A stretch of DNA of 64,000 nucleotides from NCBI GenBank assembly GCA_947501685.1, contig CANMWQ010000002.1, forward strand, positions 372,001 to 436,000, given 5' to 3'. The position numbers and the translations under genes were made by a program. Origin of the DNA: an uncultured Litoreibacter sp. (GTDB lineage: Bacteria > Pseudomonadota > Alphaproteobacteria > Rhodobacterales > Rhodobacteraceae). Shown one piece after another: positions 28,014 through 42,501 of the stretch (positions within the stretch are counted from its first letter, which is position 1; every line of letters begins with the position of its first letter). The notes below the pieces were generated by a model that ran no database searches, was not told the DNA's origin, and saw only the letters and a program-made list of their open reading frames with translations.

Positions 28014-28023
28014 TGGGGCTGAT

Positions 28024-29157
28024 ATGAGCTATTTCGACGACTTAGAAACCCGCAGCGCGGATGCGCGCGAGGCAGGCCAGCTGGCGCAACTTGCGGTGTT
28101 GGGCGTGGAGGATTTGGCGGCACGCCCCGTGCTGCGCAAATCCGAGCTGTCCAAATTGCAGGCCGCCGATGGACCATTTGGAGGGCTTCACGTGGGCGAC
28201 GTGGCGCATGTGTTTCAATCTCCGGGACCGATCTATGAGCCCGGCGGCGTCACCCATGACTGGTGGCGGTTCGGGCGGTTCCTGCATGCGGCAGGGATCG
28301 GGCGGGATGACGTGGTGCAGAACTGCTTTGGCTATCATCTGACGCCTGCCGGAATGATGTTCGAAAACGGCGCGCGGGCTGTCGGGGCCCGTGTGCTGCC
28401 CGCAGGCACCGGCCAGACCGAATTGCAGGCGCGCGCGGCCCATGACATTGGCTGCACCGCCTATGCAGGCACGCCGGATTATCTGAAGGTGATCCTCGAC
28501 AAGGCCGACGAAATGGGGCTGGAACTGGCCTTCAAGACGGCCTGCGTTTCAGGTGGCGCGCTGTTTCCGGCGCTGCGCCAAGCCTATGCGGAGCGCGGCA
28601 TTGCCTGCCTGCAATGCTATGCCACCGCCGATTTGGGCCACATTGCCTATGAAAGCCCCGCGATGGAGGGGATGATCCTTGATGAAGGCGTGATCGTCGA
28701 AATCATGACACCCGGCACCAGTGATCCGGTGGCAGAGGGCGAGGTGGGCGAGATTGTGGTCACGTCTCTGAACCCGGACTATCCCCTGATCCGCTTTGCA
28801 ACGGGCGATATGAGCGCCTTTATGGCCGGTCAGTCGCCCTGCGGGCGGACGGGAAAGCGTATCAAAGGCTGGATGGGCCGCGCGGATCAGACGACCAAGA
28901 TCAAGGGCATGTTCGTGCGGCCCGAGCAGGTGGCCGAATTTGTGAAACGCCACCCTGAAGTGAGCCGTGCCCGCGTGATTGCCACCCGTGACGGCGACGC
29001 GGATGCGATGACCGTGCGCATTGAGGCACCAGAGGGCGGCGACTACGCGGCCAGTCTGCAAGAGCTGCTGAAGCTGCGCGGAGATGTTGAAATCGTGCCC
29101 AGCGGAACCCTGCCTGCCGATGGGGTGTTGATTGAGGACAAGCGCAGCTACGATTGA
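28024..29157 (+). CDS. Phenylacetate-CoA ligase-like AMP-forming enzyme
   Basis: 377 residues, shorter than PaaK (about 430). PaaK-type features: the region around GCTAYAGTPDYLKVILDKA, FKTACVSGGALFPALR, GEIVVTSLNPDYPLIRFATGDMS and the C-terminal hinge RADQTTKIKGMFVRPEQV. The classical Ser/Gly-rich phosphate loop is not obvious, so catalytic competence is uncertain. It is the second adenylate-forming enzyme in the transporter operon and probably handles the same type of carboxylate. ATG at 28024 follows GGGGCTGAT. Confidence 0.82.
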   Translation: MSYFDDLETRSADAREAGQLAQLAVLGVEDLAARPVLRKSELSKLQAADGPFGGLHVGDVAHVFQSPGPIYEPGGVTHDWWRFGRFLHAAGIGRDDVVQNCFGYHLTPAGMMFENGARAVGARVLPAGTGQTELQARAAHDIGCTAYAGTPDYLKVILDKADEMGLELAFKTACVSGGALFPALRQAYAERGIACLQCYATADLGHIAYESPAMEGMILDEGVIVEIMTPGTSDPVAEGEVGEIVVTSLNPDYPLIRFATGDMSAFMAGQSPCGRTGKRIKGWMGRADQTTKIKGMFVRPEQVAEFVKRHPEVSRARVIATRDGDADAMTVRIEAPEGGDYAASLQELLKLRGDVEIVPSGTLPADGVLIEDKRSYD

Positions 29158-29185
29158 CGCGCAACCATGCCAAAGGAGCCGCTTC

Positions 29186-30826
29186 ATGAGAGTATTTCTG
29201 CTATCCGCCCTGATGGGCGCCACCGGGTTGAGTGCCGCGGCGGGCGATGTCGCGCTGCTGATTGCGAATGAGAATTACGACAATGGCAGCGACATTCGCG
29301 CGGCTGACGACCTGTTGGACGCAGAGGACGCCTTGGAGGCGGCCGGGTTCGAGGTGCTCACGGGCGAGGATGTCTCGACCACGGAGCTGCGCGGCCTCGT
29401 GGAAGAGCTACAGCAAAAAGCAGATGGGTCGGGCCGCGTCATCATCGCGGTCTCGGGGCATTTTGCCAGCTCGAACAGTGGCAGCTGGATATTCGGGAGT
29501 GACGCGGATGCACCCAGCCGGTTGAGCGCGGGCGCGCAGGGTGTGGCGTTGGAGGCGTTGGTCGGCGTGGCCGGGCTGTCTCCGGGGCAGGCGGTTGTGC
29601 TGTTGGGTACGGAAGAGCGCGAATTTGCCCTGGGCTCCGGGTTGCAGGCCGGGATCAAGGCCCCGGAGGCAGAACAAGGCGTGACGATTGTAACAGGCGA
29701 CGCCTCCGAGATCGCGGCGTTCATACAAGGCGAGCTGCTGGCAGACGGCCAGAGCATCGTGGCAAGCCTGAGCCGCGCGGCGGATTTGACGGGCAGCGGG
29801 TTTCTGGCACCACTCATCCCGTTCATGGGCGGCACCCCGGCGGTGCCGGTGGAGCTTGAGGATCCGAATAGCGCGGAGCGGGCTTTTTGGACGGCGACAC
29901 AAGGGATCAACTCAGCGGCAGGGTATCAGGGGTATTTGAACACCTATCCGGATGGCTTGTTTGCCCAAGAGGCCCGCCGGGCGATTGAGCGGATCGAACA
30001 GGAGCCTGCGAAACTGGCGGAAGCAGGAGAGGATGCGTTGAACCTCAGCCGTGACGCTCGGCGGCAAGTTCAGCGCAACCTGACATTGCTGGATTACGAC
30101 CCGAAAGGCATTGACGGTATCTTCGGCAGAGGGTCGCGCGCGGCGATCACTAAGTTCCAGCAAGCCAACGGGTTGCCTGCAACAGGGTTCGTGACGCGCG
30201 GGATGATGGACCGCTTGAGCGTGCAGGCCGAGCGACGCAACGCTGAGCTTGAAGCGGAAGCGGAGCGGCGACGTGTGGAGTTGGAACGTCAGGACCGGGC
30301 CTATTGGCAAGAAACAGGCGCGCTTGGGGATGAGGCTGGCTTGCGGGCCTATATCGAGCGCTACCCCGATGGTGTCTTCGCCGATATTGCCGCTGTGCGG
30401 CTCAAACCGTTTGAAGATGCGCGCCGTGAGGCGGCGGCGGCGCAGGACCGCGCGGATTGGGATGCGGCGGTCTCAGTGGATACGGGTGCTGCCTATGAAG
30501 GATATCTGCAGGCAAACCCCGAAGGGGCGTTTGTGGCGCAGGCCAAGGCGCGGATCTCGGAGCTGAAGTTCGCCAATCAGAACAAGGCGGCGCTGGACGC
30601 GGCCCAACGCAACGAAGAGCGGCTGGGTATGAGTGCGGGCACGCGGCGTTTGATGGAAGACCGACTAGAAAAGCTGGGCCTGGAGCCCGGGCCAGCGGAT
30701 GGCGTGTTTGACGACAAGACGCGGCGCGCCATCCGGCGCTACCAAGAGGCGCGCAGGTTGCAGGTGACGGGATATCTGAACCAGGCGACAGTTGTGCGGC
30801 TGCTGGCGGATTCGGTTCTGCGCTGA
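29186..30826 (+). CDS. Degenerate caspase-fold protein with two peptidoglycan-binding domains
   Basis: 546 residues; ATG at 29186 preceded by AAGGAG. Signal peptide (LLSALMGATGLSAAAG), then a caspase-like (C14) fold: VALLIANENYDNG, DLLDAEDALEAAGFEV, VIIAVSGHFAS. The His of the dyad survives in SGH but the usual Asp-x-Cys strand reads VVLLGTEEREF, so the nucleophile is absent and it is probably not a protease. Two PG_binding_1-type repeats follow: about residues 285-345 (RRQVQRNLTLLDYDPKGIDG) and about 480-545 (LEKLGLEPGPADGVFDD), separated by a Glu/Arg-rich helical stretch. Likely periplasmic and cell-wall associated. A terminator follows at once. Confidence 0.8.
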   Translation: MRVFLLSALMGATGLSAAAGDVALLIANENYDNGSDIRAADDLLDAEDALEAAGFEVLTGEDVSTTELRGLVEELQQKADGSGRVIIAVSGHFASSNSGSWIFGSDADAPSRLSAGAQGVALEALVGVAGLSPGQAVVLLGTEEREFALGSGLQAGIKAPEAEQGVTIVTGDASEIAAFIQGELLADGQSIVASLSRAADLTGSGFLAPLIPFMGGTPAVPVELEDPNSAERAFWTATQGINSAAGYQGYLNTYPDGLFAQEARRAIERIEQEPAKLAEAGEDALNLSRDARRQVQRNLTLLDYDPKGIDGIFGRGSRAAITKFQQANGLPATGFVTRGMMDRLSVQAERRNAELEAEAERRRVELERQDRAYWQETGALGDEAGLRAYIERYPDGVFADIAAVRLKPFEDARREAAAAQDRADWDAAVSVDTGAAYEGYLQANPEGAFVAQAKARISELKFANQNKAALDAAQRNEERLGMSAGTRRLMEDRLEKLGLEPGPADGVFDDKTRRAIRRYQEARRLQVTGYLNQATVVRLLADSVLR

Positions 30827-30835
30827 GTGAGACGG

Positions 30836-30900
30836 GATCTGAATGAAAAGCCCTCGATGCCTGCGCATCGGGGGCTTTGTTGTTTTTATCTGCGCCCTGC
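30836..30900 (+). repeat. 65-bp perfect repeat containing a terminator (copy A)
   Basis: Identical to 39172-39236, base for base as read here. It starts GATCTGAATGAAAAGCCC and ends ATCTGCGCCCTGC. It is the left end of a longer duplication that reaches through the small secreted-protein gene. Confidence 0.9.
30847..30888 (+). terminator. Intrinsic terminator after the caspase-fold gene
   Basis: Stem AAAGCCC-T-CGATGC / GCATCG-G-GGGCTTT followed by GTTGTTTTTA. Duplicated exactly after nfeD (39183-39223). Confidence 0.85.
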
Positions 30901-31015
30901 AGGAGGGCCGTTGGAGAGGGGCGGGCTTTGCCTTCGACGGGTGCGCAGGTTGTGAGACCTGAGTCGGGCATATTTTTGCCAAGATGAAGCGGGTTTTACG
31001 GTCTGTTTCAGCGAT

Positions 31016-31093
31016 CTCACGCGTTGTGAGGGCTTTCTCACGTCAGCGTGTGGATGATGGCTGACGCGCTGACCGAGATGTGCGTATACGCAC
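31016..31093 (+). promoter_or_regulatory. Conserved upstream operator of secreted-repeat gene, copy 1
   Basis: CTCACGCGTTGTGAG (31016-31030), then CTCACG at 31037, giving half-sites on a 21-bp direct-repeat period with an inverted half-site between. Exactly 64 bp from the start lies the perfect 14-bp palindrome GTGCGTATACGCAC (31080-31093). The same elements at the same offsets precede copies 2 and 3. Operator start to ATG is 220 bp. The regulator is unknown. Confidence 0.65.
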
Positions 31094-31150
31094 TGAATTT
31101 ACAAAAATAGAGAGAAATGTTCGTAGAAATGGGCGGCGGCGGGGTGCATA

Positions 31151-31234
31151 TTAGTCTCATCAAACGGCAACACACCGCCGCACACACAACGCCCCGCCAA
31201 GACGGCAAACGGGCAAACACAAACTGGAGACTAA
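31151..31234 (+). promoter_or_regulatory. Leader with anti-Shine-Dalgarno octamer, copy 1
   Basis: TTAGTCTC (31151-31158) is the exact reverse complement of GAGACTAA (31227-31234), which contains the ribosome binding site. The 68 nt between are A/C-rich and poor in structure. Alternatively TATTAG (overlapping the octamer) is a -10 box, in which case the octamer would not be transcribed. Confidence 0.45.
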
Positions 31235-31235
31235 C

Positions 31236-31529
31236 ATGAAAACTCTTATCGCAACCGCACTCGTATCCCTGTCCCTCGTAGCCCCTGCTGCCGCTGATAC
31301 CGCCATCCAGCAATTCTTCGCCCTGACAAATGACAGCGCCGCTGAGCGCATCGTTGGCGAAACTTCGGTCGGCGATCCCGTTGGCACAGCCCAAGAGCTG
31401 GCGCTGGTCAATGACAGCCCTGCCGAAAACACTGTGAACTTTGACCGCGCTCGCAACGTTGATGTCAAAGCGATCCAGAAAATCTTCGCACTGACCAACG
31501 ACTCGCCTGCTGAGAACATCGTTCGCTAA
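31236..31529 (+). CDS. Small secreted NDSxAE-repeat protein, copy 1
   Basis: 97 residues; I know no family for it. A Sec signal peptide (MKTLIATALVSLSLVAPAAA) leaves a mature chain of about 76 residues made of three imperfect repeats: FFALTNDSAAERIVG, LALVNDSPAENTVN and IFALTNDSPAENIVR, the last at the very C-terminus. No cysteines, acidic overall, no membrane helix after the signal. GGAG sits seven bases before the ATG. The conserved upstream region and terminator make it a single-gene unit. The mature protein differs from copy 2 at one position (I/T). Could be a periplasmic, surface or released structural or signalling protein. Confidence 0.8.
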   Translation: MKTLIATALVSLSLVAPAAADTAIQQFFALTNDSAAERIVGETSVGDPVGTAQELALVNDSPAENTVNFDRARNVDVKAIQKIFALTNDSPAENIVR

Positions 31530-31598
31530 ACGCTTCAACCAGATGGAGAACCCCAACCGGTTGATCCATCTCCAGTGACCCTGAGTTTTCAGGGTCGG

Positions 31599-31634
31599 AA
31601 CGGGCCCTGGTGATGCGGGGCCCGTTTCTATTTC
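31599..31634 (+). terminator. Terminator after secreted-repeat copy 1
   Basis: AACGGGCCC (31599-31607) pairs with GGGCCCGTT (31618-31626), followed by TCTATTTC. Another hairpin (GACCCTGA / TCAGGGTC, 31577-31596) precedes it. Confidence 0.75.
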
Positions 31635-31656
31635 GGACATTATCATGCCCTCAAAA

Positions 31657-31686
31657 GAAAAAGCCGCCCCGGAAGGCGACTTTTTC
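31657..31686 (-). terminator. Terminator of rpmJ
   Basis: On the minus strand AAAGTCGCC-TTCCGG-GGCGGCTTTTTC forms a stem (with one G-T pair) followed by a T-run, 20 bp after the rpmJ stop. Confidence 0.7.
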
Positions 31687-31705
31687 TATTCGTAGTAATG
31701 TGACC

Positions 31706-31831
31706 TTAGCCCTGGCGGGCTTTGAACCGACGTTGGGTTTTGTTGATCACGTATACACGGCCCTTGCGGCGCACAATCCGGCAATCCCGGTGGCGCGACT
31801 TCAGGGAGCGAAGCGAGTTCTTGACCTTCAT
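31706..31831 (-). CDS. rpmJ: 50S ribosomal protein L36 (bL36)
   Basis: 41 residues: starts [17 protein letters not shown] and continues with the bL36 core [22 protein letters not shown] (part shown: [19 protein letters not shown]). Length and sequence are those of alphaproteobacterial bL36. Only one cysteine is present, so it is the zinc-free type. It is an intrinsic protein of the large ribosomal subunit. A minus-strand gene with its own terminator, 92 bp downstream of tRNA-Val on the same strand. Confidence 0.95.
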
Positions 31832-31922
31832 GTCATTCTCCAATTGTCGTCCAGCGCGCTTGCGCCTTCAGGTTTCAGTTTGCCCGAAAGACCCAGGTCG
31901 GGCCAGTCCGGCGGAAATGCGA

Positions 31923-31997
31923 TGGTGGGCACTACTAGGTTCGAACTAGTGACCCCTTCGATGTCAACGAAGTGCTCTACCACTGAGCTAAGCGCCC
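31923..31997 (-). tRNA. tRNA-Val (GAC)
   Basis: 75 nt including encoded CCA. Acceptor GGGCGCT pairs with AGTGCCC (one G-T), anticodon stem CTTCG/CGAAG encloses TTGACAT with anticodon GAC, and the T-arm has GTTCGAA. Reads GTY codons of valine. Confidence 0.95.
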
Positions 31998-32150
31998 ATC
32001 GACTGCCCCCTGAGTTTGGCCCGGCTCGCATAGAATACGACGCGCCTGAAGCACGGGGGGTTCGCGCTCTATAGAAGGAGTCGGAATGTGGTTCAAGGGC
32101 TTTTGAACCTGCCACAAAACGGCCTATACTCTGTGCCACAAGGAGCGATG

Positions 32151-33011
32151 ATGCGCAAAGACGCCTACAGATTGACGCAGCCTGATCTGCAGACCACCAG
32201 CACGGTATTCACCAGCCCTCATAGCGGGCGGGATTACCCGTGGGCGTTCCTGCGCAAATCGGTGCTGGACGAGCTGGCGATCCGGTCTTCGGAAGACGCG
32301 TTTATGGATATGTTGATCTCCAACGCGCCGGCCTGCGGCGCGCCGCTTTTGGTGGCAAATATGCCCCGCGCCTTTCTGGACCTGAACCGGGCTGCCGACG
32401 AGCTGGACCCTGCGGTGATCGACGGGGTGAGCCAAGTGAGCCATAACCCCCGGATTGCCAGCGGGCTGGGAGTTATCCCGCGTGTGGTGTCCAACGGCCG
32501 CGCCATCTACCGCGGCAAGCTGAAGAACCGTGAGGCGCAGGACCGGATTGCGGACTATTGGCAGCCTTATCATGGCCAGCTTGCCGAGCTGATGAACAAC
32601 ACGCGGCGGGATTTTGGCGAGGCCATTCTGGTGGATTGCCATTCCATGCCGCATGAGGCGGTGGATGCCGTTACCCAAGTGGGGATGTCCCGCCCTGAGG
32701 TTGTGCTTGGCGACCGATTTGGGGCCTCTGCGGATGGTGAGATTGTAGACCGCATTGAGCAGGTCTTTCTGGAAGCGGGGCTTAGGGTCAGCCGCAACAC
32801 GCCTTTTGCCGGCGCCTTCACCACGCAACATTATGGCCGCCCGTCGCGCAATCAGCACGCGATTCAGATCGAGATTGACCGCGCGCTTTACATGAACGAG
32901 ATGCGGGTGCGCCCGAACGGCAATTTCGACAGCTTCCGGCAGCTGATGTCCAAAGTGGTGGCCGAGATTTCAGATATTGGCCGCCGCAAGATGCGGCTGG
33001 CGGCCGAGTAA
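32151..33011 (+). CDS. N-formylglutamate amidohydrolase family protein
   Basis: 286 residues. ATG at 32151 lies five bases after AGGAG; the adjacent ATG at 32148 is too close. Family features: TSPHSGRDYP at the N-terminus, FLDLNRAADELDP, VDCHSMPH and the QIEIDRALYMNE block with metal-binding His/Glu candidates. Members hydrolyse N-formylglutamate to glutamate and formate in histidine breakdown, but many Rhodobacterales homologues lie outside hut operons, as here, so the substrate is uncertain. Followed by an intergenic GC palindrome and GAGTATTTTTTGAAG, then the convergent dinB. Confidence 0.88.
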   Translation: MRKDAYRLTQPDLQTTSTVFTSPHSGRDYPWAFLRKSVLDELAIRSSEDAFMDMLISNAPACGAPLLVANMPRAFLDLNRAADELDPAVIDGVSQVSHNPRIASGLGVIPRVVSNGRAIYRGKLKNREAQDRIADYWQPYHGQLAELMNNTRRDFGEAILVDCHSMPHEAVDAVTQVGMSRPEVVLGDRFGASADGEIVDRIEQVFLEAGLRVSRNTPFAGAFTTQHYGRPSRNQHAIQIEIDRALYMNEMRVRPNGNFDSFRQLMSKVVAEISDIGRRKMRLAAE

Positions 33012-33079
33012 GATGAAGGGGCTTTGCCCCCGCAGCCTGCGGCTGCTCCCCCAGAGTATTTTTTGAAGCAATGATGGGG

Positions 33080-34333
33080 TCAGCGGAGTGCGCGGCCTTT
33101 GACGATGGCGTCCTTGCCGAACCGTTCGCGGATCTTGTCGGTGGCGCGTTCTGCGTCTGAGCGTTGATTGGCCTGAGGGTCCAGCAAATCGCCTGAGCGG
33201 TCAGCATCGCCTGCGTCCCACAGCTCTGAGATGCCCACGCCCAGCAGCCGGTAGGGACCTTGCGCGCCCACCTGGTCGAACAGGTCACGCGCGGTGCGGT
33301 AGATCTTGTCAGCCATTTGCGTCGGGTCGCGCAGCGACAGCCGCCGTGTGACCAGCTTGAAATCGGAGGTCTTCAGTTTCAGCGTCACCACCCGGCCCGC
33401 GATGGATTTGGCCTTCGCCCGGTCCGCCACCTTTTCCGACATGCGCCACAGATGCCCGTCCAAAATATCAAGGCTGGCGGTGTCGTCGCTGAAGGTGGTC
33501 TCGTTCGAGATGCCTTTGATGGGAGTATGCGCCGACACTGCGCGGCGGTCCTGCCCGCGGGCGAGATGCCAGAGCCGGTCCCCCATGGAGCCGAACCGCG
33601 CGCCCAGCTCCTTGCGGTCCCAGCGCAGCAGGTCGGCGAAGGTGCGGATGCCGGCTTTCTCGAGGCTGTCGCGGGTTACGGCACCGACGCCCCAGATCAT
33701 CGAGACAGGTTTATCGCGTAGGAAGGCGTCGGTCTCCGCCTTGCCGATCACGGAGAAGCCGCGGGGTTTGTCGAGGTCTGAGGCGACTTTTGCAAGGAAC
33801 TTGTTGTGGCTGAGGCCGATGGAGCCAGAAATACCAAGCTCGGTTTCCATACGGTTGACCAGCCGGGCGAGCACGACGGCGGGGGGGTGGCCGTGCAGGG
33901 TCTGGGTGCCGGTGAGGTCCAGGAACGCCTCGTCCAGCGAGAGCGGCTCGATGGAGGGGGTGAGCTCCTCCATCAGGGCGCGGACCTGGCGGGAGACCTC
34001 GACATAGGTGTCCATGCGGCCCCGGACGATGACGGCTTCGGGACAGAGCTTGAGGGCCTGGAACATCGGCATGGCGGAGCGCACGCCTTTGATGCGGGCG
34101 ATGTAGCAGGCGGTGGAGACGACGCCGCGGCGGCCGCCGCCGATGATGACGGGCTTGTCGCGCAGCTCCGGGTTGTCGCGTTTCTCGACGGAGGCGTAGA
34201 AGGCGTCGCAATCCATATGGGCGATGGAGAGGTCGAACAGCTCGGGATGGGCCATGACGCGGGGGCTGCGGCAGGCGGGGCAGCGGGGGCCGTCTTCAAA
34301 CGGGGTCAGGCAGGTTCGGCAGAGCGCGGGCAT
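33080..34333 (-). CDS. dinB: DNA polymerase IV with N-terminal zinc ribbon
   Basis: 417 residues; Y-family translesion polymerase. Catalytic motifs HMDCDAFYASVE and SLDEAFLD, the fingers/palm GGGRRGVVSTACYIAR, the HhH region (SMIWGVGAVTRDSLEKAGI) and little-finger domain are complete. The first 30 residues add a CxxC-9-CxxC knuckle (C5, C8, C18, C21) before the usual start near Met27, so an alternative shorter start exists. It copies damaged DNA with low fidelity. It converges on the upstream amidohydrolase and is separated from the restriction-modification genes by about 400 bp. Confidence 0.95.
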   Translation of the reverse strand: MPALCRTCLTPFEDGPRCPACRSPRVMAHPELFDLSIAHMDCDAFYASVEKRDNPELRDKPVIIGGGRRGVVSTACYIARIKGVRSAMPMFQALKLCPEAVIVRGRMDTYVEVSRQVRALMEELTPSIEPLSLDEAFLDLTGTQTLHGHPPAVVLARLVNRMETELGISGSIGLSHNKFLAKVASDLDKPRGFSVIGKAETDAFLRDKPVSMIWGVGAVTRDSLEKAGIRTFADLLRWDRKELGARFGSMGDRLWHLARGQDRRAVSAHTPIKGISNETTFSDDTASLDILDGHLWRMSEKVADRAKAKSIAGRVVTLKLKTSDFKLVTRRLSLRDPTQMADKIYRTARDLFDQVGAQGPYRLLGVGISELWDAGDADRSGDLLDPQANQRSDAERATDKIRERFGKDAIVKGRALR

Positions 34334-34493
34334 GGGGTGATTTTAGCACGCCGGGACGGGGCTGGACAGCGGCGGTGCTCCGGTTCGAGAGGGTTTGTTC
34401 TAGGGGAGAGATGGGGGGCTGAGGCCGGTCTCTGGACCGGTGGTCTCTGGGTCAGGAGGGGGGGCAGCTCGGGCTGGGGCCCCGGATACTGAG

Positions 34494-34511
34494 TCCGACG
34501 CATGCGTCGGA
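34494..34511. repeat. 18-bp perfect palindrome TCCGACGCATGCGTCGGA
   Basis: Lies in the 34334-34729 gap and is followed by TTGGGGTATC. It resembles the palindrome-plus-GTATTT intergenic element seen elsewhere, but the sequence turns AT-rich right after GGGGTAT, marking the left edge of the low-GC island. The remaining gap holds no gene I can support. Confidence 0.6.
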
Positions 34512-34634
34512 TTGGGGTATCTCACTGATTTTGTTTGGTTTTGTGATTTTTGTTAGGGGTTTGTTAAGAAGGTTGCAAAGGTCTAAGATTCCATTGCGTT
34601 GCTAGATGGTGACATCGCCTGCCAACCAATGAAA

Positions 34635-34647
34635 CTGAGAATCTCAG
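34635..34647. promoter_or_regulatory. Palindrome CTGAGAATCTCAG upstream of the methyltransferase
   Basis: Perfect odd palindrome about 83 bp before the methyltransferase start; its half AGAATCTC recurs inverted as GAGATTCT at 34677-34684. Possible autoregulatory operator, since no separate control-protein gene is visible. Confidence 0.4.
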
Positions 34648-34729
34648 AAAACAGATTGTCATAAGTGATTTATTCAGAGATTCTGTGCCCCACTGGTAAC
34701 GAACGCAGTTTGGAGATTGGAACCCTACA

Positions 34730-35851
34730 ATGGAAAACCCTTCGATTTTTTCGTTCTTTTCAGGGGCAGGATTTCTAGATCTAGGTTTTGAGACAGAGGG
34801 ATATGACATTTGCTATGTCAACGAACACCATGCCCCTTTCCTAGACGCCTATCGGTACTCGAGAGAAAAAATGCAACTCCCCTCACCGCGATATGGTTAT
34901 GACGGAGCAAGTATTGAAGAGATCATACCCGACGAGATTTCTGCATGTATCGATGAAGAGAAGAAGTATGGTAAGAGAGTGGGCTTTATCGGCGGCCCGC
35001 CCTGCCCAGACTTTTCAGTTGGTGGGAAGAATCGAGGTAAAGACGGCGAAAACGGCAAGCTGTCGCAAGTGTATATCGATCTCATTTGTGCGCATAAGCC
35101 AGATTTCTTTCTATTTGAGAATGTCAAAGGCCTATACAGAACAAAAAAGCATCGAGAGTTCTTTGAAAAATTAAAACGCAAGGTTCGCCGTGCAGGTTAT
35201 ATTCTTCATGAGCGCCTTGTTAACGCCATCGAATATGGGGCACCTCAGGATCGTGATCGGATAATACTTCTAGGCTTCAGGGACCAGAACTTGCCAAAGA
35301 ATTTTATTTGGAGTGGACAAGTATTCTCCGAAGGGGCTGCATTTGAATTTGACTGGCCCAAAGCAGAGCAATTCGAAGTGGAAGTTGTTAGAGATCGTCC
35401 GATGTCAGTACCTATAGAACTATCTGTTCAATACTGGTTTGAGAGGAATGATGTTGATAACCATTCAAATGCGAAGCATTGCTTTAAACCTCGTGCAGGG
35501 CTCGAACGATTTTTGACCGTTGCTGAGGGGGATGATAGCCGCAAGTCTTATAAGCGGCTTCATCGTTGGCGATATTCTCCGACGGCTGCTTACGGCAATA
35601 ATGAAGTGCACTTGCACCCTTACAAGGCCAGACGCATATCGGTTGCTGAGGCTTTGGCGATTCAGTCATTGCCAAAAGAATTTGAGCTCCCAGATAATAT
35701 GACTCTGTCCAATATGTTCAAGACAATTGGAAACGGCGTCCCATTTGTTGCTGCACAAGGATTGGCAAAATCAATTTCAGATCACCTAAGGATAGGCAAT
35801 GCAAGTAACCGCTCAAAACATTGTACGGGCCATCAGTCTGCTGCCGCGTGA
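34730..35851 (+). CDS. DNA (cytosine-5) methyltransferase of a type II restriction-modification system
   Basis: 373 residues. C5-MTase motifs in order: I (FSFFSGAGFLDLGFE), IV with catalytic Cys92 (GGPPCPDFS), VI (FENVKG), VIII (QDRDRIIL), IX/X (RRISVAEALAIQSLP, IGNGVP). The region between VIII and IX is the target-recognition domain; the recognition sequence cannot be read from it. AT-rich codons (one 60-bp line at 35101 counts 33% GC) contrast with flanking genes, so it was probably acquired horizontally. Its 3' end overlaps the next gene by 53 bp in another frame. Confidence 0.92.
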   Translation: MENPSIFSFFSGAGFLDLGFETEGYDICYVNEHHAPFLDAYRYSREKMQLPSPRYGYDGASIEEIIPDEISACIDEEKKYGKRVGFIGGPPCPDFSVGGKNRGKDGENGKLSQVYIDLICAHKPDFFLFENVKGLYRTKKHREFFEKLKRKVRRAGYILHERLVNAIEYGAPQDRDRIILLGFRDQNLPKNFIWSGQVFSEGAAFEFDWPKAEQFEVEVVRDRPMSVPIELSVQYWFERNDVDNHSNAKHCFKPRAGLERFLTVAEGDDSRKSYKRLHRWRYSPTAAYGNNEVHLHPYKARRISVAEALAIQSLPKEFELPDNMTLSNMFKTIGNGVPFVAAQGLAKSISDHLRIGNASNRSKHCTGHQSAAA

Positions 35852-36878
35852 TCGCGAGTATCAATATGTTAATCCCCGGAATGCTGGACGAATAAGAATC
35901 CACAATGTGCGGGAACCAGAAGGGCCGATAGAAATACGGCGCTATGATCCTTCGAAGGGCGAGCGCTTGTCGAACAAGCCCATAGAAAGCATCTCGATTC
36001 AGATGATTTGGCGTATGGCAAATGCAATACAGCCCGACAAACCAGTAAACGTGGATCGAGTATATGGCGGCAGCTATAATACTAGATCGGTGTTCGAAGC
36101 TCTTTTAGCGCATACCCCAAGTTTCTATAGTTGTAAGCCCGGGCGAATAGAGCTCATGAACGCCTACAAGAAAGTTAAGCCGGGCCATAAGCATCTCATC
36201 TACCTTCCCAATGAACCTCATGAAAACGGTTCAATGGGTTTTAAAGATGTGAATATGGAAGTCTCCGAGCTGTCTGTCGATGTTGTCTATAAGGGGTTGG
36301 ATTTGGACTCGACGCAGCCGGTGGCGGGAATGACTATTGCAGAAAAAAGAAGGCATGCACAGATTCAGATTGCTCTCGTCCTGATCGGTAAGCAACTTGG
36401 GTTTCGGACCTGGGTCGCATCGAACGACCGCAGCATCGAGTATGAAGGCAAACGGATTGCCGAGCTAGAGGCAGTAATCGAGAACCTGAACTCAGAACAA
36501 GTCTTAAGTGCCTACCCAGAAGCTACGAATGCTGCCCGCTTAATCGATTGCGTTTGGTTCAAGAATGGTCGCTTAATGCCCGCTGTAATGGAGATTGAGC
36601 ATAGTACTGGGGTTACAAGTGGGCTAACAAGGATGAAGGGTTTTTTTGATACTGGACCTCAGCTTCGAGATATAAGGTGGACAATCGTAGCGCCAGACGA
36701 AGATCGAAATAAGGTCATAGATCAAGCGAATCGTGATCAGTTTAGAGAAATGGATGCCAAATTCTTTCCTTACTCAGCGGTCGAAGAGTTGTATTCGCTT
36801 TGTGAGCGTAGAAAGCCGGAAGGTGTGACCGATAAATTTTTGAACTGCTTTATGGAAGATTGTTTGGTAGAGAAATAA
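35799..36878 (+). CDS. Predicted restriction endonuclease partner of the methyltransferase
   Basis: 359 residues. No family name is certain, but a PD-(D/E)xK-like core is visible: Asp250 in LIDCVWF, then Glu265 and Glu267 in VMEIEHSTGVTSGLTRM, a pattern common in modification-linked endonucleases. The central part (AEKRRHAQIQIALVLIGKQLGFRTWVASNDR) also looks nuclease-like. AT-rich like the methyltransferase and translated from inside its last 53 bp, which would help keep toxin-like and protective activities balanced. It should cut the same site the methyltransferase protects. Confidence 0.75.
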   Translation: MQVTAQNIVRAISLLPRDREYQYVNPRNAGRIRIHNVREPEGPIEIRRYDPSKGERLSNKPIESISIQMIWRMANAIQPDKPVNVDRVYGGSYNTRSVFEALLAHTPSFYSCKPGRIELMNAYKKVKPGHKHLIYLPNEPHENGSMGFKDVNMEVSELSVDVVYKGLDLDSTQPVAGMTIAEKRRHAQIQIALVLIGKQLGFRTWVASNDRSIEYEGKRIAELEAVIENLNSEQVLSAYPEATNAARLIDCVWFKNGRLMPAVMEIEHSTGVTSGLTRMKGFFDTGPQLRDIRWTIVAPDEDRNKVIDQANRDQFREMDAKFFPYSAVEELYSLCERRKPEGVTDKFLNCFMEDCLVEK

Positions 36879-36993
36879 CCTCGCCTTCTAATATTCTTTG
36901 ATGCTCTCGCGGCGCACAACTAGGGAAGCACCCTCCCAATTAGAAATGGAGCGCTGGCCGGAAGTGATTAAAAAGTATGTGGGAACTCTACCC

Positions 36994-37827
36994 TCACTCC
37001 TCCTTCACCCACCTTATCACCTCATCCAGCGCTTGTGCGGCGAGCATACCTGTGGCTCTTGGGCCTGTCAGAATGAGCGCCCAGCCGTCGGGGCGGTATT
37101 CGCGGCGGATGTGGATGTCGGAATGGGCCTGGACCATGCGTTTGGGCGCTTGGGGGTGTTTTAGGCGTGGGGCGCCGGCGAGGACTTGCTCCGACTCGTC
37201 GATGATGGGCGCGATGAGCTGCCAGATCTCATCGGTGGTTTTGACCTTGTGACGCCGGATCGTCTCCAACACCATATCGGCCAGACCGGCGCGGATCGTG
37301 GCACCGAGACGCAAGAGTTTGCGCTCCGACAGGGCGTGGGGGTCGGGGAAGGTCTCGAAGAACGTTTCCACCACCATAACGGTCGCGCGGAGGCGGCGCT
37401 TTTTGACATCGCTGGCGCGAGGGTGGAGGGCGGCGATGGCGGCGTCGGGGGTCTCGAATATCCTCTCATTGCAGGCCTCGACGATAATACGGGCGCGGTC
37501 CCAGGGGGAGATGTTGGCGCGGATTTCGTTCTCCGCGATCATCTGGGCCATGGCGTCGGGCAGCGTTTCGGGCGCGCGGATGAAGGCGGGGATCTTGGCG
37601 TAGCGGTCGCTGTCCTTGGCCAAGCTCTGATAGACGGTGAGCCGCCGGTGGCCCGCGATAAGGCCGTAGCCCTCGTTCTTTTTCCAAACTTCTATGGGCT
37701 GGCGCAACCCGTCGAGCAGGATGGACATGTAGAGCTCGTGGTCGTCCTCCTCATCCGCGTGGGAGCGGTCGCGGGGCAGCGCCTCCTTATCGATGAGGTG
37801 AACCGGGATATCGAGGAGGTCAGCCAT
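36994..37827 (-). CDS. ParB/RepB-like nuclease-domain protein
   Basis: 277 residues. N-terminal ParB/Srx-type domain: IPVHLIDKEALPRDR, ILLDGLRQPIEVWKK, GYGLIAGHRRLTVYQSL, followed by an HTH-like region (ENEIRANISPWDRARIIVEAC). The C-terminal half is less conserved. No ParA is adjacent, so a chromosome-partition role is unlikely; stand-alone homologues occur in Rhodobacterales and may be regulators. High GC resumes here, about 100 bp beyond the endonuclease, marking the right boundary of the island. The 36879-36993 gap shows nothing. Confidence 0.8.
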   Translation of the reverse strand: MADLLDIPVHLIDKEALPRDRSHADEEDDHELYMSILLDGLRQPIEVWKKNEGYGLIAGHRRLTVYQSLAKDSDRYAKIPAFIRAPETLPDAMAQMIAENEIRANISPWDRARIIVEACNERIFETPDAAIAALHPRASDVKKRRLRATVMVVETFFETFPDPHALSERKLLRLGATIRAGLADMVLETIRRHKVKTTDEIWQLIAPIIDESEQVLAGAPRLKHPQAPKRMVQAHSDIHIRREYRPDGWALILTGPRATGMLAAQALDEVIRWVKEE

Positions 37828-37978
37828 GGCGCGCGCCTTTGTTTTGTTTGGGTCGGCGTGCTGGTAGCGCAGTGTGGTTAACGTGCCATGACCGGGGCAA
37901 ACGGTGCCCGGCGCCCGGCGTTTTGCTTTAAAACAGGCCGGTTGGCCCCCATATAGAGTGGGAAAGAGAGGTTGATTT

Positions 37979-38875
37979 ATGGATATTCAGGAGATTTTGC
38001 TGGGGTTTGTCGGCAACAACGTGGTGTTCCTGCTGCTGGCTGTGTTGCTGATCGTCATCATTCTGATGGGCGTGCGCATCGTGCCGCAATCGGAGAAATA
38101 CGTGGTGGAACGGTTCGGCAAGCTGCGCTCCGTGCTGGGGCCGGGGATCAACCTGATTGTGCCGTTTATCGACCGGGTGGCGCATAAGATTTCGATTTTG
38201 GAACGCCAGCTGCCGACGAATTCGCAGGACGCGATCACCTCCGACAACGTGCTGGTGCAGGTGGAGAGCTCGGTGTTTTACCGCATTATTGAGCCGGAGA
38301 AGACGGTGTACCGCATTCGCGACATTGACGCGGCGATTGCCACCACGGTGGCGGGGATCGTGCGCTCCGAGATCGGCACGCTGGAGCTGGACGAGGTGCA
38401 GTCGAACCGGGCGCAGCTGATCGTGCGCATTCAGGGCGCGCTGGAGCGGATCGTGGATGACTGGGGCATCGAGGTGACGCGGGCGGAGATTTTGGACGTG
38501 AACCTCGACGAGGCCACGCGGGCCGCGATGTTGCAGCAGTTGAATGCCGAACGTGCGCGACGCGCGCAGGTGACGGAGGCCGAAGGGTCCAAGCGATCTG
38601 TTGAGCTGAACGCGGATGCGGAATTGTATGCAGCCGAGCAGCTGGCCAAGGCGCGGCGCCTTCAGGCGGATGCGGAGGCCTATGCGACCAGCGTGGTGGC
38701 CGCGGCAATTGCCGAGAACGGGCTGGAAGCCGCGCAATACCAAGTGGCACTGAAGCAAGTTGAGGCGCTGACGGCGGTGGGCGCGGGCGAAGGCAAGCAG
38801 ACTATATTATTGCCGGCCAACGCGCTGGACGCGTTCAGCGACGCCTTTGGGTTGCTGAAAGGGCGCGCGCCATGA
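37979..38875 (+). CDS. SPFH/band-7 membrane protein (QmcA/stomatin-like)
   Basis: 298 residues. One N-terminal membrane helix (VVFLLLAVLLIVIILMGV), then the SPFH domain beginning RIVPQSEKYVVERFGK, with VLGPGINLIVPFIDRV and a long Ala/Glu-rich helix (about 180-260). Stomatin-type proteins form oligomeric membrane microdomain scaffolds. The C-terminal TILLPANALDAFSDAFG is typical. It overlaps an NfeD gene by 4 nt, the standard partnership for stomatin operons. Confidence 0.93.
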   Translation: MDIQEILLGFVGNNVVFLLLAVLLIVIILMGVRIVPQSEKYVVERFGKLRSVLGPGINLIVPFIDRVAHKISILERQLPTNSQDAITSDNVLVQVESSVFYRIIEPEKTVYRIRDIDAAIATTVAGIVRSEIGTLELDEVQSNRAQLIVRIQGALERIVDDWGIEVTRAEILDVNLDEATRAAMLQQLNAERARRAQVTEAEGSKRSVELNADAELYAAEQLAKARRLQADAEAYATSVVAAAIAENGLEAAQYQVALKQVEALTAVGAGEGKQTILLPANALDAFSDAFGLLKGRAP

Positions 38876-39159
38876 TGTGGACCGAGTATTGGGTCTGGTT
38901 CGCGGCTGCGCTGGTTCTGGGAATTCTGGAGATACTGGCACCGGGCTACATCTTGCTGGGCTTTGCCATTGCCGCCGGGCTGATGGGTCTGGCCTTCTAT
39001 ATAGATGGCGGGCTTGGCAGTTATCTGGCGACCTCCCTCCCGATCACGCTGGCGCTCTTTGCGGGCGTCTCGCTGGGCGTTTGGTTTGCGCTGCGCAAGA
39101 TCTTCGGCCTGCGCCATGGGCAGGTGAAGGTTTGGGACAGAGATATCAACGACGACTAG
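38872..39159 (+). CDS. NfeD family protein (short form)
   Basis: 95 residues, with three hydrophobic helices (YWVWFAAALVLGILEIL, GYILLGFAIAAGLMGLAFY, LPITLALFAGVSLGVWFAL) and no N-terminal protease domain. The truncated C-terminus lacks the full OB-fold of long NfeD proteins. Works with the SPFH protein in the inner membrane. ATGA overlap upstream and a terminator right after. Confidence 0.85.
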   Translation: MMWTEYWVWFAAALVLGILEILAPGYILLGFAIAAGLMGLAFYIDGGLGSYLATSLPITLALFAGVSLGVWFALRKIFGLRHGQVKVWDRDINDD

Positions 39160-39171
39160 CTGTGTTTGCCT

Positions 39172-39236
39172 GATCTGAATGAAAAGCCCTCGATGCCTGC
39201 GCATCGGGGGCTTTGTTGTTTTTATCTGCGCCCTGC
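39172..39236 (+). repeat. 65-bp perfect repeat containing a terminator (copy B)
   Basis: Identical to 30836-30900. Continues, after a diverged 60 bp, into a second conserved block (39298-39379, three mismatches to 30961-31042) and then the copy-2 gene. Confidence 0.9.
39183..39223 (+). terminator. Intrinsic terminator after nfeD
   Basis: Same hairpin and GTTGTTTTTA tail as at 30847-30888. Confidence 0.85.
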
Positions 39237-39352
39237 GGGCGGGCAAGTGGAGAGGTCCTGGCCTTTGACGTCAGCCCCTGCGCGCATTGCGGGACTTGAG
39301 TCGGGCATAATTTTGCCAAGATGAAGCGGGTTTTGCGGTCTGTTTCAGCGAT

Positions 39353-39430
39353 CTCACGCGCTGTGAGGGCTTTCTCACGGCGGCGTGTGGGTGTCGGCTG
39401 TTGCGCGCAGAAATATGTGCGTGAGCGCAC
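39353..39430 (+). promoter_or_regulatory. Conserved upstream operator of secreted-repeat gene, copy 2
   Basis: CTCACGCGCTGTGAG (39353-39367), CTCACG at 39374 (21-bp period), and GTGCGTGAGCGCAC at 39417-39430, again 64 bp from the first element. An extra CTCACG lies at 39435. Operator start to ATG is 221 bp. Confidence 0.65.
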
Positions 39431-39487
39431 CTATCTCACGGATAAAACAGTCGATGTGCGTGGAAATGGCTGATGAGAGGGTCCATA

Positions 39488-39572
39488 TTAGTCTCATCAA
39501 ACGGCAACACCCCGCCGGACACACACAAGCCCAGCCAAGACGGCAAACGGGCAAACACAAACTGGAGACTAA
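39488..39572 (+). promoter_or_regulatory. Leader with anti-Shine-Dalgarno octamer, copy 2
   Basis: TTAGTCTC (39488-39495) is complementary to GAGACTAA (39565-39572) over the ribosome binding site, as in copies 1 and 3. Confidence 0.45.
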
Positions 39573-39573
39573 C

Positions 39574-39867
39574 ATGAAAAAGATCATCGCAACCGCACTC
39601 GTATCCCTGTCCCTCGTAGCCCCTGCTTCTGCTGACACGGCCATCCAGCAATTCTTCGCCCTGACAAATGACAGCGCCGCCGAGCGTATCGTTGGCGAAA
39701 CTTCCGTAGGTGACCCGGTTGGCACAGCCCAAGAACTGGCGCTGGTCAATGACAGCCCTGCCGAGAACACTGTGAACTTCGACCGCGCTCGCAACGTTGA
39801 TGTCAAAGCGATCCAGAAAACCTTCGCGCTGACCAACGACTCGCCTGCCGAGAACATCGTTCGCTAA
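39574..39867 (+). CDS. Small secreted NDSxAE-repeat protein, copy 2
   Basis: 97 residues. Signal peptide MKKIIATALVSLSLVAPASA; the mature chain is identical to copy 1 except Thr for Ile in QKTFALTNDS. Three NDSxAE repeats as in copy 1. Near identity, including silent sites over long stretches, points to recent duplication or gene conversion. ATG at 39574 follows GGAG; the in-frame extension upstream is not needed. Function unknown. Confidence 0.8.
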   Translation: MKKIIATALVSLSLVAPASADTAIQQFFALTNDSAAERIVGETSVGDPVGTAQELALVNDSPAENTVNFDRARNVDVKAIQKTFALTNDSPAENIVR

Positions 39868-39940
39868 AACGACCCTCGCCCAAAGCGAGACCCTGTTTCC
39901 ACCTGAAGCGGCCTTCCTCAAATCGAGGGGGGTCGTTTTG
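39867..39940. terminator. Terminator after secreted-repeat copy 2
   Basis: AAACGACCC (39867-39875) pairs with GGGTCGTTT (39930-39938) with inner hairpins and a TTTTGG tail. It could also serve the convergent M24 peptidase gene. Confidence 0.6.
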
Positions 39941-39949
39941 GTTTGAGGC

Positions 39950-41098
39950 TTACCGCGCGTAGAGATCCGGCGCGTGGCGGGACAAGCGTTCGCAGCCCTG
40001 CTTGGTGACCAGCACCGAATGGCCAAGGCACATGGCCGCACCTGCGTCGCTATCCATCAGGATCATATGCAGGAAAAACACCTGACCTTCCCGCATCTCA
40101 AGCGGATTGCCTTCGTAAAACATCGGGAAATCCACCCAAATCGGCGTGTAGACCGCGCCCATACCGTAGCCGCAGGCTTGTAGTCGGGCATGGCCCATCC
40201 CGGCGGCGTCAAAGACCGCTGCATGCGCGGCATAGACATCTCCCATGGGTTTGCCGGGACGGATGGCGGCCTCGCAGGCCTCCAGCGCGTCGCGAGCGGC
40301 GCTGTGCAATTTGCGGTGGGTGGCGGAGGGCTCCCCGACAATCAGGGTCTGCATCATTGCGGCGTGGTAGCGGGCATAGGTGCCGGACCATTCCAGCGTC
40401 AGCTGATCGGAAGCGTCCAGATGTCGGCGGCCCGAGAAATACCGGCATAGGAGCGCGCCGGGGCCAGAGCCGATCACGAACTCATTGCCCGCATAATCGC
40501 CGCCGCCTTTGAAGACCGCGCCCTGCATGCCGGCCAGAATATCGCCCTCAAACGCGCCTGCTTGGGTCAAGGAAAGAGCCGCATCAAACGCGTCATCCGA
40601 TAGGGCGGCGGCGCGGCGGTGCATGTCTATCTCGGCGGGGGATTTGAGGCGCCGCAGATCGCGGATCAGGTCAGAGGCCTCGATCAGATCGCCCAAGACC
40701 TCGCGGACCATGCGCCCGTTATAGTCGGTCAGCCCTGCCGTCTGCCCCTCAATGCCGATGCGGCCTTGTGCGACGCCAAGTCTGGACAGAAGTGCATGCA
40801 GATCCTTTGCGGGTGCCGCGCCCTCATATTCGGGCCAGATATGGATGTCATCATCGGCCAAACTTGAGGTGTGCTGTGCCTGGCGCAGGTCCGGCATCCG
40901 GGTGAGGAGCGACAAATGCCCCTCGCGGGTGAGCACCATGCATTGAAACATCGCAAAGCCGAACGTGTCATAGCCGCTGATCCAATACTGGCTTTCAGGC
41001 GCAAAGAGCAGAATAGCGTCGAGATTCGCGGCCCTGAGCGCCTGTGTAGCGGCGGCCTGGCGGGCGGCATATTCAGCATCGGTGAAGTGAAGCGGCAT
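39950..41098 (-). CDS. M24 family (Xaa-Pro aminopeptidase/creatinase-like) hydrolase
   Basis: 382 residues from the ATG at 41098 (MPLHFTDAEYAARQ), with AAGGA about ten bases upstream; the longer frame adds a Pro/Arg-rich extension without an RBS. N-terminal creatinase domain, then the pita-bread domain with LTLEWSGTYARYHAAMMQTL, GKPMGDVYAAHAAVFDAAGMG and YGMGAVYTPIWVDFP. Some metal ligands of true aminopeptidases (Asp-Asp-His-Glu-Glu) are replaced, as in creatinases and ectoine hydrolases, so the substrate is open. Its start faces the promoter of secreted-repeat copy 3. Confidence 0.85.
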   Translation of the reverse strand: MPLHFTDAEYAARQAAATQALRAANLDAILLFAPESQYWISGYDTFGFAMFQCMVLTREGHLSLLTRMPDLRQAQHTSSLADDDIHIWPEYEGAAPAKDLHALLSRLGVAQGRIGIEGQTAGLTDYNGRMVREVLGDLIEASDLIRDLRRLKSPAEIDMHRRAAALSDDAFDAALSLTQAGAFEGDILAGMQGAVFKGGGDYAGNEFVIGSGPGALLCRYFSGRRHLDASDQLTLEWSGTYARYHAAMMQTLIVGEPSATHRKLHSAARDALEACEAAIRPGKPMGDVYAAHAAVFDAAGMGHARLQACGYGMGAVYTPIWVDFPMFYEGNPLEMREGQVFFLHMILMDSDAGAAMCLGHSVLVTKQGCERLSRHAPDLYAR

Positions 41099-41169
41099 CG
41101 GGGCGGTCCTTTTCCTGTCTGCAGGGATTCTAGGCCGAGCCCGCCTGTCAGGGTGGTCGGAACGCGACA

Positions 41170-41248
41170 TTCACGCGATGTGAGGTGATTTTCACGGGCG
41201 CGCGACGATATCGGCTGAGCGTCGGAAGGATATGTGCATAAAAGCGCA
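41170..41248 (+). promoter_or_regulatory. Conserved upstream operator of secreted-repeat gene, copy 3
   Basis: TTCACGCGATGTGAG (41170-41184), TTCACG at 41191 (21-bp period) and GTGCATAAAAGCGCA at 41234-41248, 64 bp from the first element. Surrounding sequence is diverged from copies 1 and 2, so conservation of these blocks is informative. Operator start to ATG is 219 bp. Confidence 0.65.
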
Positions 41249-41305
41249 GAAGTCGGCCATTTTATCGTAAATGGTGTGTTGAGATGGTCTGCCGGGGCGC
41301 GCATA

Positions 41306-41387
41306 TTAGTCTCATCAAACGGCAACACACCGCCGCACACACAACGCCCCACCAAACACATAGGGGCACACACACATTGGAGACTAA
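41306..41387 (+). promoter_or_regulatory. Leader with anti-Shine-Dalgarno octamer, copy 3
   Basis: TTAGTCTC (41306-41313) complementary to GAGACTAA (41380-41387). The intervening leader differs in length and sequence from copies 1 and 2 but the two octamers are unchanged. Confidence 0.45.
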
Positions 41388-41388
41388 C

Positions 41389-41685
41389 ATGAAAACTCTT
41401 ATCGCAACCGCTCTCGTATCCATGACTTTTGCTGCCCCTGCTGCTGCTGACGTCACAGACCTTCAGAAGTTCTTTGCTCTGGGCAACGACTCTGCCGCTG
41501 AACGCATTGTTGGCCAAACATCCGTTGGCGACCCCGTGGGCACCGCCAAGCGTCTGGCTCTGGTCAATGACAGCCCGGCTGAGAACACCGTGAACTTTGA
41601 CCGCGCTCGTAACGTTGACGTCAAAGCGATCCAGCGCATGTTCGCCCTGACCAACGATTCTCCTGCCGAGAACATCGTTCGGTAA
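41389..41685 (+). CDS. Small secreted NDSxAE-repeat protein, copy 3 (divergent)
   Basis: 98 residues. Signal peptide MKTLIATALVSMTFAAPAAA, then VTDLQKFFALGNDSAAERIVG, LALVNDSPAENTVN and MFALTNDSPAENIVR. Differs from copies 1 and 2 mainly in the first mature 15 residues and around GTAKRLAL; repeat cores are kept. A strong terminator follows. The stop lies 1 bp from the convergent vWA pseudogene's stop. Confidence 0.8.
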   Translation: MKTLIATALVSMTFAAPAAADVTDLQKFFALGNDSAAERIVGQTSVGDPVGTAKRLALVNDSPAENTVNFDRARNVDVKAIQRMFALTNDSPAENIVR

Positions 41686-41686
41686 C

Positions 41687-42433
41687 CTAACCTGTCTGTC
41701 CTCCCACAGACACCAAGCGGCCTTCCTTCGGGAAGGCCGTTTTGCGTTGGGGCAGCGCGCCGATCAGGGCGCAGCCGAGCGTGGCGTTCAGCGCCTCGAC
41801 CAACTCGTCCACGGTCTCAGTAGAGACGTAGGTGCCGCCGGTTTCATCCGACAGGCATTTGGCGACCGTGTCGCCGCCGGTGGCGCTTTGCTCGGGGTTG
41901 TCCCAGCCGAAGAAATCAAAGCGGAACTTGAAGCCGATCACATGCACGGTGAGGTCAGCGCCTTGCGCCTGCAGCTGGCGGCCAAGCGCGCAAGGCGTGC
42001 CGCCACAGGTCTCGTTACCATCGGTAACTAGCACGATGGTGGCGGGCTGGTTGCGTTATTTCAGAACCTCTGCCGCCTGTGCAACAGATGCGCTGAGCGG
42101 GGTCATGCCGCCGGGGGCCAGCGCGTCGACGGCCCGGATAATTTTGTCGGCGGCGCGAGGCTCGGGGGCAAAGCGCAGGTCGATATTAGCGCAGCCGCCA
42201 AGGGCGCCGGGCCCGTAAACCAGCAGGCCAAGATCGCGAAACGCCTCGACCTGCGGCAGGGCGCGGGCGATGGCGGTACGCGCGTCGATGATGCGCGGGG
42301 TGCTGGCCTCCAGGCCGATTTCAGCCATGGAGCCCGAACCGTCAAACACCAGCATCGCGTCGGCCCCGCAATTGGAGCTGGCGGTGGCGGCCTGGGTGGC
42401 GATCAGCAAGGACAAGATTGCGGGTCTGAGCAT
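41687..42433 (-). pseudogene. von Willebrand factor A-domain protein disrupted by one stop codon
   Basis: From the ATG at 42433 the frame reads a signal peptide (MLRPAILSLLIATQAATA), then a vWA domain with the MIDAS motif DGSGSM. At 42056-42058 an in-frame TAA follows ASVAQAAEVLK, and the same frame continues RNQPATIVLVTDGNETCGG to a TAG at 41687. Family members have an aromatic residue (often Tyr) at the stop, so a TAC/TAT to TAA change is the simplest history. Both halves look otherwise intact, so this is a fresh nonsense mutation or a sequencing error. Intact it would be about 248 residues, secreted and metal-binding. Confidence 0.8.
41718..41743 (+). terminator. Terminator after secreted-repeat copy 3
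   Basis: CGGCCTTCC-TTCG-GGAAGGCCG followed by TTTT. It overlaps the 3' end of the vWA pseudogene on the other strand. Confidence 0.85.
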
Positions 42434-42501
42434 TGCAATTGAGGGTGGCAGTAAAGCACCGTTCTGTCCATGATGTGGGTTGGATAGAAGTGGAGAGCAT
42501 G

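Follow-up and report, generated by a model that had tools for sequence, protein, structure and literature searches.

Why would a bacterium keep several near-identical genes for a small, apparently exported protein, and what might switch such genes on? The question is raised by a 64,000-nucleotide stretch of DNA from an uncultured Litoreibacter sp. of the Rhodobacteraceae (contig CANMWQ010000002.1, positions 372,001 to 436,000; G000:C2:372001-436000 in our notation, where G000 is the source genome and C1, C2 and C3 are its contigs), hereafter the window. A first-pass annotation had marked three genes there, copies 1 to 3, each encoding a protein of 97-98 amino acids that begins with a Sec-type signal and contains three [FL]ALxNDSxAE units. 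Our best reading, which we hold at about even confidence, is that these NDSxAE genes are controlled by a putative activator and amplified in dosage, and that their small products are probably exported to the periplasm or beyond.

NDSxAE genes are multicopy in Litoreibacter

Translation of the open reading frames (ORFs) and shuffling of the motif confirmed the architecture of the three proteins. The units of copy 1 lie at residues 28, 55 and 84, the last of the three being four residues from the C-terminus, and when its mature chain was shuffled 200,000 times, not even one [FL]AL.NDS.AE appeared. The translations also bore out the reported relationship among the copies, in that one mature residue (I/T) and changes in the signal peptide separate copies 1 and 2, and copy 3 diverges mainly in the early mature chain. 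All three N-termini look like Sec signals with an A-x-A site near residue 20 (signal peptides were assigned by eye), which would leave mature chains of 77-78 residues. As computed for copies 1 and 3, the mature isoelectric points are 4.2 and 4.9, and both chains lack Cys, His, Trp and Tyr. We saw no conserved set of catalytic residues, and we take the S-x-A-E of the units to be similar to a helix N-cap box.

The annotation had described a three-copy family; at E ≤ 1e-3, the genome instead holds nine members, of which five are near-identical (the three window copies on C2 and two on C1), one, on C3, has 64% identity and three are divergent. We refer to the multicopy NDSxAE type as class I, with six genes in the source genome. 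Other relatives carry LFAMSNxSAAE or EEYLALSNxSAAE, and inspection by eye of their upstream regions revealed no class-I leader. Matches were found in 20 of 21 Litoreibacter genomes, with up to 12 per genome (counts that include some second pieces of one gene), and the single genome without a match is 79% complete. Of 28 loci on named contigs, 27 belong to Litoreibacter and one to Primorskyibacter, and in a family-level sample 4 of 198 genomes matched, two of the four coming from the same genus.

The proposal that these proteins belong to no described family held up in every library searched. Queries P0001 and P0003 had no match in Pfam, PHROGs or PADLOC, and a profile search of PDB sequences with alignment A2 returned nothing at E ≤ 1. 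NCBIfam gave one sub-threshold match, to the N-terminal half of CopK (NF033793) including the signal peptide (E = 0.2); at 11.7 bits against a cut-off of 123, the NDSxAE proteins are not members. Literature searches that included the motif and operator strings yielded no paper on the family that was recognizable from titles or abstract starts.

Copies are under purifying selection and evolve in concert

Whole-gene dN/dS was 0.03-0.15 across 14 close pairs and reached 0.27 in the comparison with the C3 copy, demonstrating that the coding sequences are under purifying selection. The low ratio in the close pairs indicates that the frames are translated. In a tree of 35 coding sequences, copies clustered by genome (12 changes versus a shuffled mean of 24.2). 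Topology tests, which covered the copy-1 and copy-2 sites, rejected grouping G000 with G214 by site (approximately unbiased test, p-AU of 9.1e-6 and 9.5e-8, respectively). Because same-site copies 1 and 2 of the two species do not group, the copies evolve in concert; this is complete for copies 1 and 2 and the two C1 copies, and not for copy 3. Overall, the three window genes belong to a genus-level family that is multicopy and evolves in concert, and whose small proteins are predicted to be exported by Sec.

Selection and copy similarity also bear on what the protein might do. One alternative is a secreted peptide precursor: after export, the chain would be processed into two or three NDSxAE peptides serving as signals or inhibitors, and extra copies would raise the yield. 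Three similar units per chain, the last near the C-terminus, would suit such a precursor, as would a small, multicopy product that appears to be exported. However, purifying selection spans the whole chain, the alignment shows by eye no constant cleavage-like site between units, and no processing or transport gene was recognized beside the copies, and we thus consider a precursor quite unlikely. We regard an antibacterial or competition protein as very unlikely: although the proteins are small, exported by appearance and variable between genera, PADLOC and PHROGs returned no match, no immunity gene was recognized beside the copies, and copies within a genome are kept alike, not diversified.

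Copies 1 and 2 have ~700 bp in common, upstream DNA included. Both also have a terminator-like stretch far upstream (about 30836-30900 and 39174-39240), just 3′ of the preceding genes. Family members recur at conserved sites, for which we use neighbour names that we presume from sequence types. One site lies 3′ of an SPFH/nfeD pair (in the window and in L012, L022, L025, L027, L044 and L054), another lies between genes for a peptidoglycan-binding protein and an N-formylglutamate amidohydrolase homologue, and a third lies beside an M24 peptidase gene. The connection to SPFH/NfeD is positional only. In the window, the M24 peptidase gene (39950-41170) is flanked by two family copies. In other species (L019, L028 and L053), the M24 gene and its flanking copies are found elsewhere, beside the amidohydrolase gene, which suggests recombination between copies.

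This relocation and the long stretch common to copies 1 and 2 would also be expected of passenger repeats, that is, copies spreading as mobile or recombinogenic DNA whose protein is of little importance. The low dN/dS and the conserved sites, such as that 3′ of nfeD, argue otherwise, and tblastn against plasmid and phage collections gave no match at E 0.1, so that we rejected a phage or plasmid origin and consider passenger repeats highly improbable. No transposase or element ends were recognized in the window ORF list, with no dedicated search made for them. Elsewhere in the window, at 34730-36878, there are two overlapping genes, for what we take to be a DNA cytosine methyltransferase-like protein and a possible restriction endonuclease; codon scores of 0.40 for both, versus about 0.6-0.7 for the neighbours, fit the expectation for an acquired restriction-modification pair.

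A predicted palindromic operator and a leader hairpin precede class-I genes

The window copies had been taken to be independently promoted, and we indeed found a promoter-like region and a leader for each (Table 1). The class-I order is CATATT, then (C)ATCAAACGGCAACAC..GCCG, then a CA-rich leader running to GGAG, and the -35-like element is variable, being TTGAGA in copy 3 and poor in the other two window copies. Upstream of the promoter, 28 of 38 regions contain a site matching at least 10 of 11 positions of GTGCRT..YGCAC, compared to 1.7% of shuffles, and these sites mostly fall 129-160 nt 5′ of the start codon. The exact palindrome GTGC-N6-GCAC occurs in 24 of 37 class-I upstream regions of the genus versus 0.67 expected. 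CRP/FNR-type sites read TGTGA-N6-TCACA. The predicted operator resembles them in having two inverted 5-bp half-sites and a 6-bp gap; however, its half-site is TGTGC, not the canonical TGTGA. A second palindrome lies ~40 bp above the operator of every window copy. TGAG and TCAC rank directly after GTGC among N6 half-sites in the genus upstream set.

We then asked where this control region occurs across the source genome. The strict operator pattern GTGCRTNNRYGCAC gave 9 rows at 7 places, with 5 rows in a backward control. Five of the seven places precede class-I genes, and the other two are near a TruB-like gene and within a hydrolase-like ORF. Two of the places (3 rows versus 0.13 expected) are in the window. 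A sequence model of the control block, for which 150 of 1340 candidates were scored, recovered six class-I genes and one weak match (E 0.26) that by eye resembles coding sequence; it thus confidently matched no other gene.

A hairpin is possible in all 28 distinct class-I leaders, which were selected with a regular expression for the -10/CATC region (manually for L042), and 25 of the 28 score at least 6, compared to 1.4% of 5,600 shuffles that preserve base composition only. The stems include CGGC/GCCG, GGGC/GCCC, AGGC/GCCT, TGGC/GCCA and GCAGC/GCTGC. Among 11 chosen leaders, 43 of 43 cells pair, whereas slid controls pair in 19-49% of cells. Stabilizing hairpins occur at the 5′ ends of bacterial mRNAs, and the NDSxAE leaders are similar in placing a short GC stem in the first bases of the putative mRNA; they differ in that the transcription start is inferred and the effect on stability is predicted only. 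A hairpin sequestering the ribosome site was considered, as TTAGTCTC near the -10 is complementary to GAGACTAA at the ribosome site in the window copies, and was rejected: relatives such as L018 do not preserve the pairing, and its first arm sits at the putative -10/start. Rfam, run over 28000-43000, matched a tRNA alone.

Table 1 Features of the NDSxAE genes in the window.
Feature	Position	Strand	Basis
Copy 1, 97 aa, predicted secreted NDSxAE protein	31236..31529	+	ORF translation, genome search, dN/dS
Copy 2, 97 aa, 3′ of SPFH/nfeD pair	39574..39867	+	ORF translation, genome search, neighbourhood, dN/dS
Copy 3, 98 aa	41389..41685	+	ORF translation, genome search, dN/dS
Predicted operator, copy 1, GTGCGTATACGCAC	31080..31093	.	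operator scan, exact pattern
Predicted operator, copy 2, GTGCGTGAGCGCAC	39417..39430	.	operator scan, exact pattern
Imperfect operator-like site, copy 3, GTGCATAAAAGCGC, one mismatch to GTGC-N6-GCAC	41234..41247	.	operator scan
Second palindrome, copy 1, GTGAG-N6-CTCAC	31026..31041	.	read from sequence
Second palindrome, copy 2, GTGAG-N6-CTCAC	39363-39378	.	read from sequence
Second palindrome, copy 3, GTGAG-N6-TTCAC	41180-41195	.	read from sequence
Putative -10, copy 1, CATATT, no good -35	31147..31152	+	sequence, control-block model
Putative -10, copy 2, CATATT, no good -35	39484..39489	+	sequence, control-block model
Putative promoter, copy 3, TTGAGA-N17-CATATT	41279..41307	+	sequence, control-block model
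Leader hairpin, copy 1, CGGC-N8-GCCG	31165..31180	+	sequence, hairpin scoring
Leader hairpin, copy 2, CGGC-N8-GCCG	39502..39517	+	sequence, hairpin scoring
Leader hairpin, copy 3, CGGC-N8-GCCG	41320..41335	+	sequence; leader type as in scored set
Likely ribosome site, copy 1, GGAG	31226..31229	+	
Likely ribosome site, copy 2, GGAG	39564-39567	+	
Likely ribosome site, copy 3, GGAG	41379-41382	+	

The control region recurs before other secreted repeat proteins

The block model was run on 295 genomes and the hairpin model on 394 under strict filters, and 9 and 13 loci, respectively, were read (two of the 13 being repeats); most of the weak ones looked coding-like by eye. Both models matched upstream of small secreted proteins with LAASLGV repeats (L085/L118) and DSNNRG repeats (L087/L119). 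Further matches lay before an ESYISNF protein (L088/L124, cut by a contig end) and a protein that we take to be PepSY-like (L127), and a presumably phasin-like gene (L121, in G054) has an AGGC/GCCT leader hairpin after a TATA-like box.

A search with the LAASLGV protein matched 23 of 198 genomes at E ≤ 0.01, and several of these genomes carried multiple copies. Of the 30 loci, 24 entered the start-codon step and 17 outside the genus were retained, with loci set aside as same genus, second gene pieces, weak, lacking a recognizable start or copies (L165). Exact GTGC-N6-GCAC was present in 8 of these 17 protein-found loci versus 0.07 expected, while other spacings from 2 to 12 never exceeded 1; with one mismatch allowed, 15 of 17 had a site versus 3.43 expected. 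A second protein profile (A7) matched 39 of 384 genomes at E ≤ 1e-4, in some cases through the signal peptide alone, and the largest number of dispersed copies, eight, was in G317. Members of other genera (G317, G112, G238 and G251) thus have between three and eight copies, scattered or in tandem, of a small secreted protein of their own.

We pooled the 17 loci with 11 of 30 A7 loci and five from other searches into a set of 33 upstream regions from Rhodobacteraceae outside the genus. Of the A7 loci, 21 entered the start-codon step, where L198, L203, L209 and L215 had no start, L211 and L218 encoded other proteins, and L193, L201, L210 and L212 were already present under other ids; among the five added loci, L172, L173, L178 and L179 were kept from seven with upstream DNA in view. 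The exact core was found in 16 of the 33 regions versus 0.47 expected (13 of 28 without the five added loci). It ranked first of 2,048 half-site and spacing combinations, with the runner-up at 5, and N6 was the outstanding spacing for GTGC/GCAC in both the genus and outside sets.

For the hairpin, 34 outside regions were examined and 7 without an operator were set aside. Among the 27 with an exact or one-mismatch operator, 15 have a hairpin scoring at least 6 versus 2.75 expected, or 13 of 25 without L118 and L124, which the leader models had originally found. The 15 hairpins comprise 13 different stems. Because only hairpins starting 72-87 nt beyond the operator were sought, the tight clustering of offsets is in part a product of the search itself. 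A separate analysis of folding energy gave p < 0.1 in 10 of 15 cases.

The LAASLGV, DSNNRG and IFA/STQSFG proteins of Rhodobacteraceae thus resemble the NDSxAE proteins in their Sec-type signal, small size, internal repeats and, in some genomes, multiple copies, as well as in the upstream GTGC-N6-GCAC and often a leader hairpin; however, their mature repeats are unlike NDSxAE. Chains in G171 (L010/L041, L044) have an NDSAAE-like start and a LAASLGV-type end (IAASLGV). That the NDSxAE family is a branch within a broader group of small secreted repeat proteins under one kind of control region is, in our view, about as likely as not.

The alternative is that no single regulon exists, and that many Rhodobacteraceae genes use a widespread arrangement of strong promoter and 5′ hairpin, the secreted repeat proteins being unrelated users of it. 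The similar hairpin leaders before the phasin-like gene and the PepSY-like protein would fit this, as would mature chains that differ in repeat type and align weakly. Yet the exact operator core, upstream of the promoter, is common to nearly half of the outside regions, most strict operator places in the source genome precede class-I genes, and the block model singles out those genes. We therefore consider unrelated users unlikely.

A candidate export cassette

Several observations weigh against an activator-controlled family of this kind. The copy-3 site is unmatched by the exact operator pattern, 17 of 33 outside regions lack the exact operator, and the exact sites at L149 and L151 are farther upstream than the others. 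With 9 rows against 5 in the backward control, it is the position of the operator, not its number, that is remarkable. No hairpin reached threshold in 12 of the 27 outside regions, two-sided change was seen in just one of four pairs of the 11 chosen leaders, and RNAalifold predicted no pair on an automatic leader alignment. Mature chains of the window and outside families align weakly (profile probability 21%, P 0.001, 45 columns). Copy 3 clusters with G214 and G208 copies, which makes concerted evolution incomplete. AF2 models are of low confidence, both for the NDSxAE protein (short helices interrupted at NDS, mean pLDDT 54.8) and for a class-II relative (mean pLDDT 57.6, 29 residues at 70-90). 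Finally, high expression was rejected as a reading of codon usage: class-I genes score 0.555-0.662, similar to window neighbours (M24 gene 0.604, GOGAT 0.705), and four ribosomal genes score 0.698-0.801. This ordinary usage gives no pointer to extreme abundance.

In the activator-controlled reading, a dimeric activator, perhaps of CRP/FNR-like geometry, would bind TGTGC-N6-GCACA ~70 bp 5′ of the transcription start and recruit polymerase to a promoter whose -35 is weak or variable and whose -10 is CATATT. The short hairpin at the mRNA 5′ end may give protection, followed by the CA-rich leader and GGAG ribosome site. The protein would be exported and cleaved after A-x-A to an acidic chain of ~77 residues with three helix-NDS-helix units, which may act in bulk, whether as a structural, protective or binding protein, either within the periplasm or outside, and copy number would set the dose. 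Dosage or phase-dependent use had been suggested for the copies; dosage is a plausible reason for their number, while phase-dependent use found no evidence, no invertible or slippage element being noticed upstream in a reading that included no search aimed at one.

More broadly, and with slightly less than even confidence, we propose an undescribed Rhodobacteraceae regulon in which one activator acting at TGTGC-N6-GCACA, together with a 5′ mRNA hairpin, drives multicopy small secreted repeat proteins; gene conversion would keep these similar within each genome, and repeat types would be replaced between genera. Such an arrangement would amount to an export cassette, with the control region and signal peptide persisting while the mature part changes. 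Although NDSxAE-type genes have no counterpart in the family libraries tested, proteins of this kind turn up repeatedly across one of the major families of marine bacteria. The shared operator offers a way to find the regulator and the signal behind it, and would make the role of these unannotated secreted proteins testable.

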